Assembly (NCBI RefSeq): GCF_902788255.1
Contig: NZ_CADAJR010000025.1
Location: 1 to 39,004, forward strand
Length of the DNA stretch: 39,004 nt
Direction of reading: 5' to 3'
From: an uncultured Methanobrevibacter sp.
GTDB taxonomy: Archaea; Methanobacteriota; Methanobacteria; Methanobacteriales; Methanobacteriaceae
The notes beneath the pieces are model-generated. The model worked only from the letters and a program-made list of their open reading frames with translations. It was not told the DNA's origin and searched no databases. Each line of letters opens with the position of its first letter. The first letter of the stretch is position 1. Both the position numbers and the translations under genes were made by a program. Below are positions 4,887-13,766 of the stretch, in pieces.

Positions 4887-5420
4887 TTAATTCAAACTCA
4901 TTTCATCTAGTATTAAATCGACATTGGACTTGTCCCAGCCCATTCTTCTTAATTCATGCACCATATAGATAGCTTGAGCTTCGTGTTTAAACCTATGAAA
5001 AACCACCCTTTCACCATCAATCATTTTCTGCACTGTATAATAACCGTTGACGAAACTGTAATTTTTAGGTTTAATCTTATTTTCATCTATTATTCGATTG
5101 ATTTTGTCTAAATCCCAATTTACTGCCTTACATAATGATACTATCATTTGGGCTGTTGCTTCATCACTGAATCTTCCGACTAACACGGTTTTATTGCCAT
5201 ATTGTTTTTTCACAATATAATCGCCATTTTTAGTCTTGGTATAGAATTTTGCCCCAGTGGTGTTCATGTGTCTAGGAGATGATATATCACCGTTAGACAA
5301 TGCTTCAGCACGTAAATGAGAGTATTGTCTTGCATTTAATCCATTTAATCGTTTAACATCTTCTCCAGTGATGTTAGGATTATTATAGTCTTTTACAAAC
5401 TCTTCATATACATTAATCAT
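4887..5420 (-). CDS. Two-repeat AP2-like DNA-binding protein candidate
   Basis: A 177-residue protein. After an N-terminal helical part (residues 1-50, GEDVKRLNGLNARQYSHLRAEA, helix-turn-helix-like) come two related units of about 50 residues: one starting FYTKTKNGDYIVKKQYGNKT, the other YSFVNGYYTVQKMIDGERV. Each looks like three strands and one helix, with shared Y-x-V-x-K, F-x-x-E-A and W-D positions. This is the layout of AP2/ERF-like DNA-binding domains found in mobile elements. It overlaps the gene before it by 8 bases and follows the leader box AACGAGCTGATAAAT. A role as origin or promoter binder is plausible given the repeat array 420 bases away. Confidence 0.6.
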   Translation of the reverse strand: MINVYEEFVKDYNNPNITGEDVKRLNGLNARQYSHLRAEALSNGDISSPRHMNTTGAKFYTKTKNGDYIVKKQYGNKTVLVGRFSDEATAQMIVSLCKAVNWDLDKINRIIDENKIKPKNYSFVNGYYTVQKMIDGERVVFHRFKHEAQAIYMVHELRRMGWDKSNVDLILDEMSLN

Positions 5421-5823
5421 ATTTATCAGCTCGTTTTTTCAATATTTTTAATATATTTTGTTCTTTTTTTCTTAATTCACGAATTATATTCTCGGTATCT
5501 TTGATCTCTTGAGAAATAACATTATAGTTTAAATCTACAATGACATCATAAGGCTTTATGATGTAATCACCCAAAGCATTGAGTTTTGGAACTTGAACCA
5601 ATTTTCCCTTAATGCAAACTGTTACTGCATATTGTAATTCTCGTATCTCTGTTAATACTTTGAAATAATCATTTTGTCTTTGTTTTAAGTCATCTAAATG
5701 CCTTAGTTCAAAGGTTAATTCTTTTAGCAATGTCGAATATGTTGAATTCATTGGTATTCCAAACTCGCAGGTATGGAAATGCTTACAACAGTGATGATTT
5801 GGATAACATTCACATTTTATCAT
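5413..5823 (-). CDS. Cys/His-rich N-terminus with coiled-coil protein (136 aa)
   Basis: The first 20 residues carry a dense metal-binding candidate (CECYPNHHCCKHFHTC). The rest alternates two charged coiled-coil helices (LLKELTFELRHLDDLKQRQNDYF; IKDTENIIRELRKKEQNILKIL) with a short beta region between them. A zinc-binding dimeric DNA-binding or scaffold protein is possible; I do not recognise the family. The start at 5823 follows the leader box ACGAGCTGGTAAAT, and the AGTAAC repeat array begins 22 bases upstream. The end overlaps the next gene by 8 bases. Confidence 0.6.
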   Translation of the reverse strand: MIKCECYPNHHCCKHFHTCEFGIPMNSTYSTLLKELTFELRHLDDLKQRQNDYFKVLTEIRELQYAVTVCIKGKLVQVPKLNALGDYIIKPYDVIVDLNYNVISQEIKDTENIIRELRKKEQNILKILKKRADKYD

Positions 5824-5844
5824 ATTTACCAGCTCGTTATGTTA

Positions 5845-6140
5845 GGTAACTTAGTAACCTAGTAACTTGGTAATTTATCAAAATAAAGTAACTTAGTAAC
5901 CTAGTAACTTGCCAATAATTAGTAACTCAGTAACCCAGTAACTTACCAATGTAAGCATATTTTTCTAGTATAGGGGTACCACGAAATTGGCTATAAGTTA
6001 CTTTTTTACGAAAAATTTTAAATGAATTTAAACCACTTAATTTATAAAATAAATGGCTTAGAATTCATTAAAATTTTAAGATTTGGTAACTTAGTGCCTT
6101 AGGTTACTTTTTTTCAATGAAGTTACTTCAAGAAATTACC
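5845..6140. other. Iteron-like repeat array, candidate replication origin
   Basis: Three clusters, each of three 8-base units in exact phase: 5845-5868, 5887-5910 and 5921-5944, with unit consensus AGTAACYY (first unit GGTAACTT). Inverted copies follow at 5995-6002 (AGTTACTT), 6085-6109 (GGTAACTT plus AGGTTACTT) and 6119-6128. Between the two sets lies an A+T-rich stretch (6004-6080) with arms AAAATTTTAAATGAATT and AATTCATTAAAATTTT that are near-complementary. Direct repeats beside an A+T-rich segment next to a helicase gene is the usual layout of plasmid and virus origins. It could also, or additionally, be an operator for the 5823 gene. Confidence 0.6.
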
Positions 6141-6143
6141 TGA

Positions 6144-8162
6144 TTAATTATCACCCTTTTCACTTAAATTTGGATATAGAAATGTTAAAAACTTATCAAA
6201 CCTAACTAACATAACCTTTCTAGGTTTATCCAATCTAACAAGTTTATACTTCCAACCTAACAATTCTGCAATCCCTTTTACATCGTAGCAGGCTTGATTG
6301 ACATTATGCATAGCTTTCTTTAATCCACTTGTAAAGCAAACATAATCTTTACCATTCCTAGCATGATGCAAGACCATATACGGTATTAATCGTTCATTAA
6401 TAACATTAAAAACACGGTCTGAGAAGTCTCTTGAGTCTTTAACATTATCACTGAAGAAGTCATCTTGATTCATTGGGAATCCATCTTCGGATGAGTATAC
6501 ACGGATATTTTTATTGTGCTTGTTAATCTCATCAATGAAAAACATTCTAATCTCATCTATTTCCTCATCATCAAGTTCTTCAAGTGTTACTGCTTCTGCG
6601 AATGATAATAGCCACTCAGGACATTGTCTTTCACAGTCTGCATATGCTCTCAGGATTAAGCTGTTGGATAATTCCTGCCAAGGCAATCTTAACAATTCTA
6701 TATCATTGTTTATCTCATTTACTGCGAAATCAGCAAGATATTTCAAACGATGAAAAAGGCATAATTCAGGTGTATCCATTCGGAAATGTTCCATAAATGC
6801 TTTTTTCTCACTATCTGACTTTTTCTCACTATGAGAATACAATAATTGGACAAATCTTCTTGTTAATCCCTCTACATTTGGTAATGCACTATTAGAAGTG
6901 AAAGAAACAGTGGATAATGCGAGGATAGTTGCTAAATTCCTACCCTCATATCTTCTCCTTGCATTTGTTCTCTCAACACAAGTTTTCAATGTTTCTACAC
7001 AGCTTCTGTTGTTAAAAACATTATCAGGTTCATTAACAATTAGACCAAATGTGGATTTTGATATTTGCGCACCTATTCTTGGAACAGTGTCAAATTCAGA
7101 ACCTCCAATGTCGGTTTCACTATTCGGTTCACCATAGAAATATGCCCCAATACGGGCAATTGTAGTTTTACCAGAGCCACCTTTTCCAAAGTGGTAGATG
7201 TACGGTATCAGGTTTTCTAGTGGCAATCCCATCTGTTTTTTAGCAAAACCAAAAGGAACAATCAATGCATGTTTTAGGGTGGTAGCAAGTTTTGTTTCCT
7301 GACCTACAAAGTAATTCTTCAAATCCTCAATTAGATCAAGTGCCATATTCAACTTTTCAAAGTTCACAGGCTTTAATTCAAAATCTATAATGTTTAAACT
7401 TTTAGTAATGTCATTATAATAGAAACCAGGTGTTTCTATGTCATTTTTAATGATAGCTAGCTCATTTTCAATGGCGATTTGAATTAAAGCAGTTACGACA
7501 CCTTTGAAGTGTTTAGGTGAAAGAACATATCCGTGGTCTGTCAGATATTGTTCTATTTCAGGAATACTCATATTTTTGGTATGGAAATGTCCGTCCTTTG
7601 TTGTTACCCACTCTATACTGAATGTTCTACCTGCATCACTGATTGGATTGTCATGGATTGTTATTTGAACAGGATAACAAAGAAGTATCCGAGTATAATC
7701 AGTTACTTCAATGCCTTTCTTCCAGTCAATGATTTGAACAGTAACTTCATTATTTCTGTAATCCATGACAATATACTTGTTAGAACCAATCTGTAATTTG
7801 TAAATCTTGTTGGTGTCATAAGGAATGATTATCTTATTCAAATCACGAATTAGTTCTAATGCAGTCTTTTTATCATGCTTGTCAGTGATAAATTGTTCTA
7901 TACCTTTTAATCCACTATTGGGTTTTGCATCACCAATATAAATGTCATCAAACAATTTTACAATGTCACCTAATGTTTTCTCATGAGAAGGAAGTTGATT
8001 GTATAATTCAATGAGAATTTTCTCTACAACTTCGGAATCAGTGCCTTGAAGATAAAAAGCACTAATTAAGTTTTTAAAGAATGTAAGCTCATAAGATGGT
8101 TTATACACATGCTCTATGGCTTTTTTAATTTGTTTAGCTGAACTTCCTTCATCCATTTTCAA
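6144..8162 (-). CDS. Replication helicase/primase-like P-loop ATPase
   Basis: At 672 residues, this is the largest protein of the element. A P-loop lies at about residues 324-334 (GKGGSGKTTIA), an acidic Walker B candidate at about 370-382 (FGLIVNEPDNVF), a sensor-like polar segment at about 420 (SFTSNSALP), and a possible arginine finger at about 433 (GLTRRF). This order resembles AAA+/superfamily 3 helicases of plasmid and virus replication proteins (D5- or DUF927-like). The N-terminal 300 residues show no primase motif I can name, and the C-terminal 130 residues may be a winged-helix DNA-binding part (GKDYVCFTSGLKKAMHNV). It lies immediately next to the repeat array. The family is assigned by motif order only. 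Confidence 0.75.
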   Translation of the reverse strand: MKMDEGSSAKQIKKAIEHVYKPSYELTFFKNLISAFYLQGTDSEVVEKILIELYNQLPSHEKTLGDIVKLFDDIYIGDAKPNSGLKGIEQFITDKHDKKTALELIRDLNKIIIPYDTNKIYKLQIGSNKYIVMDYRNNEVTVQIIDWKKGIEVTDYTRILLCYPVQITIHDNPISDAGRTFSIEWVTTKDGHFHTKNMSIPEIEQYLTDHGYVLSPKHFKGVVTALIQIAIENELAIIKNDIETPGFYYNDITKSLNIIDFELKPVNFEKLNMALDLIEDLKNYFVGQETKLATTLKHALIVPFGFAKKQMGLPLENLIPYIYHFGKGGSGKTTIARIGAYFYGEPNSETDIGGSEFDTVPRIGAQISKSTFGLIVNEPDNVFNNRSCVETLKTCVERTNARRRYEGRNLATILALSTVSFTSNSALPNVEGLTRRFVQLLYSHSEKKSDSEKKAFMEHFRMDTPELCLFHRLKYLADFAVNEINNDIELLRLPWQELSNSLILRAYADCERQCPEWLLSFAEAVTLEELDDEEIDEIRMFFIDEINKHNKNIRVYSSEDGFPMNQDDFFSDNVKDSRDFSDRVFNVINERLIPYMVLHHARNGKDYVCFTSGLKKAMHNVNQACYDVKGIAELLGWKYKLVRLDKPRKVMLVRFDKFLTFLYPNLSEKGDN

Positions 8163-12604: not shown

Positions 12605-13717
12605 TTATTTACCACCTCCCAAAATTTTCTTTAAACTTGCAATATCTGCCTTCATATCATCTAAATCTGATTGTAATTGTTTATTTTCATTTTCCATCTG
12701 AACAAACTCTGGAGATTTAATGGATAGTTTTTCTACATCTTTATTGATTGTTACAGCATGCAAATGTTTGATATATTCATATTTCAAATCTTCAGGATTG
12801 GTCATGAAGTAAGCTTCATCGGTTTTGTTTTTAGCTTTTCCCTGCAAATCGTTTACATCGTCTTTACTCATACCATCATTATATAATGCAGAAGCATGAA
12901 ATTTCCTAAGCATATGACTTCTAAACCTACTATATTTGCCTACTTTTCCTAATCCAAGCCTATCATTTATTCTTTGAAAATAAGTAATGAAATATGCTCC
13001 ATGCATATTAAATAATTTGCTATCATTTGTTACATTATCATTCCGTGTTAAAATATATGCATTTATGGCTTTTACTGCTTCAGGACTACAATAGGTGGTA
13101 TAATATTTGTTAGTTTTCAATCTTCTAATGTTAAAAGTAGGGATTATATTGTCATTATCATTAAGAAAATCAATTATTTGGTAAATATCCATTCTTCTGT
13201 TTGGTAAATACTCAGACAATGCATCAATATAATCCTGAATTGTCAAACTCAATGTTTCAGCACGACCGCAGCCACTAGAACAAATAAATAAGATTATGGC
13301 TTTCATTTCAGGTGAAACAATTGTTAAAGCTTGTCTTATAACTTCTTTATCAGGTAAATCTTTAAAATAAATAGGAGTTGGTTTTTCGGCAGCCTTTTCA
13401 TTAATTTTTGGTATTTCATATATTTCGATGTCATAAAATTTATAAAATTTGATTATAGCCACCATATGAGTTTTAACAGAGTTTAATGCATATTTTTCAA
13501 ATAATTTTTGTCTATATTCAATTAATCTGATTTTTACTCTGCGATGTTTCCATTTAACTCCTTTATTCTCATCTTCTTCTGCTTCCATCAATAATTCGTA
13601 AAGACTCATGCCAAAATATGTGGAATATTTTGTTAAAGCATGTTTATAGAGTTTTCGTGTCTCCTTTGAATGATTGAATGTATTTGCTAAATTGTTTAAT
13701 AGTTGCTCGTCATTCAT
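12605..13717 (-). CDS. Tyrosine recombinase (integrase)
   Basis: A 370-residue integrase that would insert and excise the element by site-specific recombination. The N-terminal 110 residues resemble a SAM-like core-binding domain (KETRKLYKHALTKYSTYFG). The catalytic part shows the first Arg in SGCGRAETLSL (about residue 150), the HMLRKFHAS box (about 267), the later conserved segment DLQGKAKNKTDEAYF, and the nucleophile in AYF or YEYIKHL (about 302-316). A coiled-coil tail (ENENKQLQSDLDDMKADIASL) may mediate multimer formation. Its promoter (AATTATAAA, 13736-13744) adjoins the right attachment repeat at 13755. Confidence 0.9.
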   Translation of the reverse strand: MNDEQLLNNLANTFNHSKETRKLYKHALTKYSTYFGMSLYELLMEAEEDENKGVKWKHRRVKIRLIEYRQKLFEKYALNSVKTHMVAIIKFYKFYDIEIYEIPKINEKAAEKPTPIYFKDLPDKEVIRQALTIVSPEMKAIILFICSSGCGRAETLSLTIQDYIDALSEYLPNRRMDIYQIIDFLNDNDNIIPTFNIRRLKTNKYYTTYCSPEAVKAINAYILTRNDNVTNDSKLFNMHGAYFITYFQRINDRLGLGKVGKYSRFRSHMLRKFHASALYNDGMSKDDVNDLQGKAKNKTDEAYFMTNPEDLKYEYIKHLHAVTINKDVEKLSIKSPEFVQMENENKQLQSDLDDMKADIASLKKILGGGK

Positions 13718-13754: not shown

Positions 13755-13766
13755 AGAGAGCATTTG
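13755..13766 (+). repeat. Right attachment-site repeat (candidate attR core)
   Basis: A second copy of AGAGAGCATTTG, in the same orientation as 1376-1387. It lies 38 bases upstream of the integrase start and 55 bases beyond the SRP19 stop, so insertion left SRP19 intact. No tRNA is involved at this site. Confidence 0.55.

Follow-up and report, generated by a model that had tools for sequence, protein, structure and literature searches.

A probable iteron-type replication origin beside the initiator helicase gene of an integrated Methanobrevibacter-type mobile element

How do helicases of the pRN1 type find their origin of replication? The authors who mapped the pRN1 origin recognised no iterons and obtained no specific binding of Rep to the origin in vitro (PMC4234260), and the pT26-2 survey found no conserved origin consensus (PMC6972569). 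The question is raised anew by a 320-bp intergenic region (5824-6143) in the stretch of DNA analysed here, hereafter the window, which comprises 39,004 nucleotides from an uncultured Methanobrevibacter sp. The region lies between the start of a gene for a Cys/His-rich protein and the stop of a helicase gene, both on the minus strand, and had been proposed from its phased repeats to be a candidate replication origin. For this region we determined the sequence features, the linkage to the helicase (hereafter Rep), the conservation of spacing and the concerted change of the repeat word, and we modelled the fold of Rep. The proposal gains support from the arrays found beside homologous helicases, together with a match in position and stem-loop to the mapped origin of pRN1, and we consider it very likely that an integrated mobile element of the Methanobrevibacter type has its replication origin at 5845-6143, where its own Rep binds.

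Layout of the repeats and the stem-loop

The words GTAAC and GTTAC occur 13 times in the intergenic region, against 0.42 occurrences expected at the rate of the rest of the window. Read in the direction of the helicase gene, inverted iterons (6134, 6122 and 6103) are followed by a stem-loop (6093-5994), a CCTATA-type element (5981-5965), which is possibly a promoter TATA element or a priming site, and three triplets (5944-5921, 5910-5887 and 5868-5845) of 8-bp units with the pattern GTTACYNN (table 1). The nine 8-base units in three triplets of the original prediction are therefore real, with the correction that the first unit starts with G and not A, and the inverted copies that it placed beyond the A+T-rich inverted repeat are indeed present between the array and the helicase stop (GTTAC at 5997, 6103 and 6122, and degenerate ATTACC near 6134); the GTAAC word at 6086 has the opposite orientation to these GTTAC words. 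The 8-base phase is perfect inside each triplet but does not extend across the array, since successive triplets start at intervals of 42 and 34 bp. The idea that a protein would sit on repeated faces of the helix proved wrong for 8-bp steps: a helical turn is not 8 bp long, and the units within a triplet consequently face different sides. The array contains a gap of 26 bp, compared with 18 in relatives, because of a degenerate fourth unit at 5869-5876. It lies 21 bp from the start of the Cys/His-rich gene and about 200 bp from the helicase stop.

Table 1. Positions of the features discussed, numbered from the first letter of the window.
Feature	Position	Strand	Remarks
Cys/His-rich small protein gene	5413-5823	minus	follows the putative origin; conservation by tblastn mostly within the Methanobrevibacter group
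Iteron triplet 3 (distal)	5845-5868	minus	GGTAACTT AGTAACCT AGTAACTT on + strand
Degenerate fourth unit after triplet 3	5869-5876	minus	GGTAATTT on + strand
Iteron triplet 2	5887-5910	minus	AGTAACTT AGTAACCT AGTAACTT on + strand
Iteron triplet 1 (nearest the stem-loop)	5921-5944	minus	AGTAACTC AGTAACCC AGTAACTT on + strand
GGTACCCCTATACTAG-type stretch	5965-5981	minus	CCTATA-type element at the same place in many close relatives
A+T-rich (83%) stem-loop, 100 nt	5994-6093	minus	starts 50 nt after the helicase stop
Inverted iteron GTTAC, helicase side	6103-6107	+	
Inverted iteron GTTAC, helicase side	6122-6126	+	
Degenerate inverted iteron ATTACC	6134-6139	+	
Rep, SF3/D5-like initiator helicase, 672 aa	6144-8162	minus	
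Rep C-terminal winged-helix domain, residues 577-662	6177-6434	minus	proposed iteron-binding domain

The arms of the stem-loop themselves carry inverted iterons (5997-6001 and 6086-6090), which enclose an A+T-rich inverted repeat with 33-nt arms that are 76% complementary (6012-6077). Folded as DNA, the stem-loop has a z-score of -4.8, or -3.7 after correction for the choice of window. In the alignment of relatives, four of the eight pairs at the stem base show changes on both sides; pairing and protein binding are inseparable at this place, because the base pairs are also iterons, and only the stem base aligns adequately, the alignment of the inner stem-loop being too poor to support a claim of covariation there. 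The stem-loops are significant in most of the Methanobrevibacter members tested (L022 being an exception), and those of several distant relatives are not significant. No HUH endonuclease of the rolling-circle kind was found among the neighbouring proteins scanned with Pfam and PHROGs.

Across all 12 elements compared, the word in the right stem arm and the initial unit of the first triplet lie 57-59 bp apart, with 59 bp in the window itself. This spacing is kept while the repeat word varies among elements (GTTAC, ATTAC, GTAAC or GTTGA) in such a way that both flanks change together: L029 has ATTAC in all words of both flanks, L022 and L031 have the words flipped, and Drs3 retains the arm-to-triplet spacing despite its GTTGA word and 9-bp units. 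The concerted change on both flanks points to a single trans-acting binder encoded by the element. The distance between the two stem-arm words takes values of 59, 67-69, 79 or about 90 bp, which are compatible with steps of roughly one helical turn. A phase test of these values, which were hand-picked from few and partly related lineages, returned p = 0.006 with 8 values and p = 0.022 with 10, at best periods of 11.2 and 10.8, and is suggestive; any helical phasing would lie between the stem arms. A second element in the same genome (G000:C12:21388-23397; L022, L141) carries flipped GTAAC triplets, with a Rep that is 80% identical and an integrase that is 63% identical.

Linkage of the arrays to Rep and the probable binder

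Helicase homologs are present in 17 of the 139 family genomes, as well as in virus contigs and in Nitrososphaerales contigs (scanned with alignment A2, which is narrower than A1), and named records with a homolog include vir080, Drs3, HAV2, pORA1, pTI1, pT26-2, pGE2 and a Methanothermobacter plasmid. We searched 45 distinct loci for triplets of exact 5-mers with a period of 7-12 lying no more than 500 nt 3' of the gene. Such triplets occur at 33 of these loci, many of which are close relatives and a few of whose distant matches are of low complexity (e.g., L067), and 25 loci have at least two; the 5' control stretches, some of them shorter, contain triplets in none of 45 cases, and dinucleotide shuffles in 0.4%. 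When the 139 family genomes were searched with the repeat alone, GTTACNNNGTTACNNNGTTAC matched 24 times in 11 genomes, and in all 24 cases a helicase homolog has its 3' end no more than approximately 300 bp from the GTTAC triplet, with no hit for the reversed-pattern control. The repeat pattern alone also retrieved double triplets from 13 IMG/VR contigs (L131 and L095 being one contig), nine of which have the helicase adjoining; the remaining four are L124, a simple bacterial tandem repeat, and the bacteriophage group L132, L133 and L135. Similar arrays next to homologous helicases, which the original prediction had asked to be looked for, thus extend well beyond the genus. Homologs standing without an array, the observation it had named as adverse, are found in a minority, namely L087 and L090-L092 (Rep 48-52% identical), where no array was seen beside Rep, whereas most loci carry one. 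Doublets or weak units only are present at L018, L019, L041 and L042, and no array was seen at L084.

Several of these contigs have further features of their own. A long way from its Rep gene, the contig of L087 (record L152) contains a GTTACATT array that resembles iterons and is located in non-coding DNA of very high A+T content. IMGVR_UViG_3300021295_000003 (104.7 kb) encodes two different Rep homologs, L089 and L091, one with an array and one without, and is possibly a chimeric assembly or two replicons. In the bacteriophage group (L132; L133, 4541-4896; L135), an A+T-rich stretch is flanked by GTAAC/GTTAC words of 8 bp, in two clusters that are inverted and separated by about 275 bp; there is no helicase of the Rep family on the stretch examined, and the clusters possibly represent a convergent origin.

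Window Rep obtained no useful name from Pfam or PHROGs, and Pfam detects no Prim-Pol domain in it; the same database places such a domain in the homologs of pORA1 and HAV2. By tblastn, window Rep is related to that of pORA1 (E = 5e-40), with 28% identity in the part that aligns, and to the HAV2 primase/polymerase (E = 1e-37); the Rep relative of Drs3 matches DUF5906 over the curated cut-off. An AlphaFold2 model built on a 13-row alignment (pLDDT 80.5, pTM 0.55) has a C-terminal winged helix at residues 577-662, approximately, in a region that is alignable across the family. The top fold match of the model in the PDB is SCCmec Cch (5dgk; E = 4.5e-10), with low whole-chain TM-scores (0.30-0.38), and is followed by poxvirus helicases of the D5/E5 type; PriRep1 bound to double-stranded DNA also ranks high. 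Among PDB sequences, a single-sequence phmmer search with Rep returned no match at all, SaPI Rep and Cch included, and a profile search produced P-loop noise alone. On the strength of its predicted fold, Rep is probably a self-loading initiator helicase, and by analogy with SCCmec Cch2 and SaPI Rep, as presented in the passages on these proteins in PMC7581432, we infer that its C-terminal winged helix may be the iteron binder.

Rep is the sole gene common to all array-bearing elements. This bears directly upon the possibility, which we regard as rather unlikely, that the region is an origin at which not Rep but another protein, either a small one encoded by the element or one of the host, binds the iterons. 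It would accord with the absence of specific origin binding by pRN1 Rep in vitro (PMC4234260) and with the AP2-like repeats, recognised by eye and accompanied by a weak HNH match, of the protein encoded at 4887-5420; however, the gene for the latter and the Cys/His-rich gene were each not found in several array-bearing elements, and a host binder is difficult to reconcile with the presence of both GTTAC and ATTAC in one genome bin (G077), unless that bin is mixed. By tblastn, the Cys/His-rich gene was not found in Drs3, L094, L134 and Nitrososphaerales. Binding of the array by the 4887-5420 protein, as suggested earlier, is unsupported, and we rejected this protein as a general binder because its gene was not found in the array-bearing elements L141, L143, L075, L078 and L080. 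Within its 177 residues, the 4887-5420 protein contains two repeats that look like DNA-binding domains of the AP2 type, and its relatives are scattered among these elements.

Under the preferred reading of an origin bound by Rep, we infer that the protein, encoded just upstream, would bind the GTTAC iterons on both sides of the stem-loop via its C-terminal winged helix and assemble as a ring or double ring; it would then melt the A+T-rich stem-loop and unwind the DNA, a primase would start synthesis, and the region would thereby act as an origin. Nucleotide skews of eight complete replicons give weak results in this respect (Fisher p = 0.04 with GC skew and p = 0.02 with TA skew, in two tests), with close agreement in pGE2, pTI1 and vir080 only.

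Comparison with known origins

In pRN1, a stem-loop of about 100 bp starts 54 bp after orf904, and the origin was mapped there by deletion (PMC4234260, PMC3869888); the stem-loop is necessary, is sufficient together with the replication operon and keeps its function after relocation within the replicon (PMC4234260). The present region resembles the pRN1 family of Sulfolobales in having its putative origin 3' of rep, with a 100-nt stem-loop 50 nt after the stop, in keeping its structure while the sequence diverges, and in the related SF3 helicase domain and C-terminal winged helix of its initiator. It differs from pRN1, which we compared by its published description, in having iterons, none of which are reported in the pRN1 papers, and also in that orf904 has an N-terminal Prim-Pol domain which is missing from the 672-residue window Rep.

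A second likeness is with SaPI Rep and SCCmec Cch and Cch2, where an iteron array equally lies directly downstream of the initiator helicase gene. According to the passages of PMC7581432 that deal with these proteins, Cch2 uses its C-terminal domain to bind three 5-nt iterons contained in 23 bp of DNA immediately after its gene, and SaPI Rep is said to bind iterons beside its own gene in a similar way. The helicase fold with a C-terminal putative DNA-binding domain is common to both systems, and iteron binding by that domain in window Rep would follow by analogy. In contrast, the SaPI and SCCmec systems are bacterial, they resemble Rep in fold only, with sequence similarity undetected, and those passages of PMC7581432 describe for them no 100-nt stem-loop whose arms carry iterons. 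The region is thus not a plain member of the pRN1 type, because Prim-Pol is missing, or of the SaPI/SCC type, because sequence homology is missing; judged by analogy, its design is that of an origin working in a SaPI/SCC-like manner combined with the stem-loop of pRN1.

For pT26-2 of Thermococcales, the origin was placed by GC skew in the intergenic region between t26-20 and t26-21 (PMC6972569). This gap contains CTATGACAT repeat clusters, and the corresponding gap of pGE2 contains GTAAC triplets; t26-22 of pT26-2 is a distant Rep homolog. The pT26-2 family therefore shares with the window a related helicase and repeat clusters in the intergenic region of the GC-skew origin, but its array lies upstream of rep and uses other words or spacing (GTCAT in pT26-2, GTAAC at 10 bp in pGE2). 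Short direct repeats adjoining an A+T-rich region are also typical of classical iteron plasmids of the RepE/RepA type, the Rep of which has a winged-helix fold and lacks a helicase domain, whereas here Rep is the helicase itself.

A search of the open-licence literature retrieved no paper on these archaeal arrays. It is an evenly balanced proposition that archaeal viruses and plasmids with pRN1-like initiator helicases share one not-yet-described origin design, consisting of inverted iterons, an iteron-armed stem-loop and triplets, in which the spacing is fixed and the word changes with the helicase. If true, the origins of pRN-type replicons would be iteron-based in the manner of SaPI, which would link the archaeal and bacterial replicons that depend on self-loading helicases. 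Spacing that obeys a common rule while the word changes would also make origins in archaeal viruses and plasmids findable by computation, and would point to the minimal replicon needed for methanogen vectors.

Other possible functions of the array and possible ends of the element

The triplets might instead serve mainly as an operator, at which Rep or another protein represses the promoter of the 5413-5823 gene. Their position 21 bp from its start codon, downstream of a possible TATA-like element, would suit this function, and autoregulation by Rep at iterons is common in bacterial plasmids. We nevertheless find it improbable, given that the downstream gene varies (a cytosine-methyltransferase-like gene in Drs3, others in L094, L096 and L134), that HAV2, pTI1, the Methanothermobacter plasmid and the Nitrososphaerales contigs have arrays unconnected with a gene start, and that the array lies upstream of Rep in pT26-2 and pGE2; an operator would also leave the inverted copies on the far side and the stem-loop unexplained. 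Although short phased repeats also act as plasmid centromeres, a partition site is highly improbable, as no ParA-type or ribbon-helix-helix partner was seen among the neighbouring proteins scanned with Pfam and PHROGs, and the same holds for an accessory site of the integrase, from which the array is far removed while tracking Rep. That the hairpin and repeats act as RNA, in a leader or terminator, is equally hard to credit: the region, lying between two co-directional genes, may be transcribed, but an Rfam scan of 5400-6500 gave zero matches, no terminator pattern was found, and the words flip orientation without loss of spacing, as expected of sites in double-stranded DNA.

The integrase gene is located at 12605-13717. 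The 12-mer AGAGAGCATTTG occurs at 1376-1387 and at 13755-13766, the second copy being 38 bp from the integrase start, and is also present beside the integrase in L142; the two window copies might be the sites of attachment of an element of 12.4 kb in which no capsid genes are recognised. The genome contains 22 copies of AGAGAGCATTTG, against none of the reversed word, and therefore the integrase may target a repeated site.
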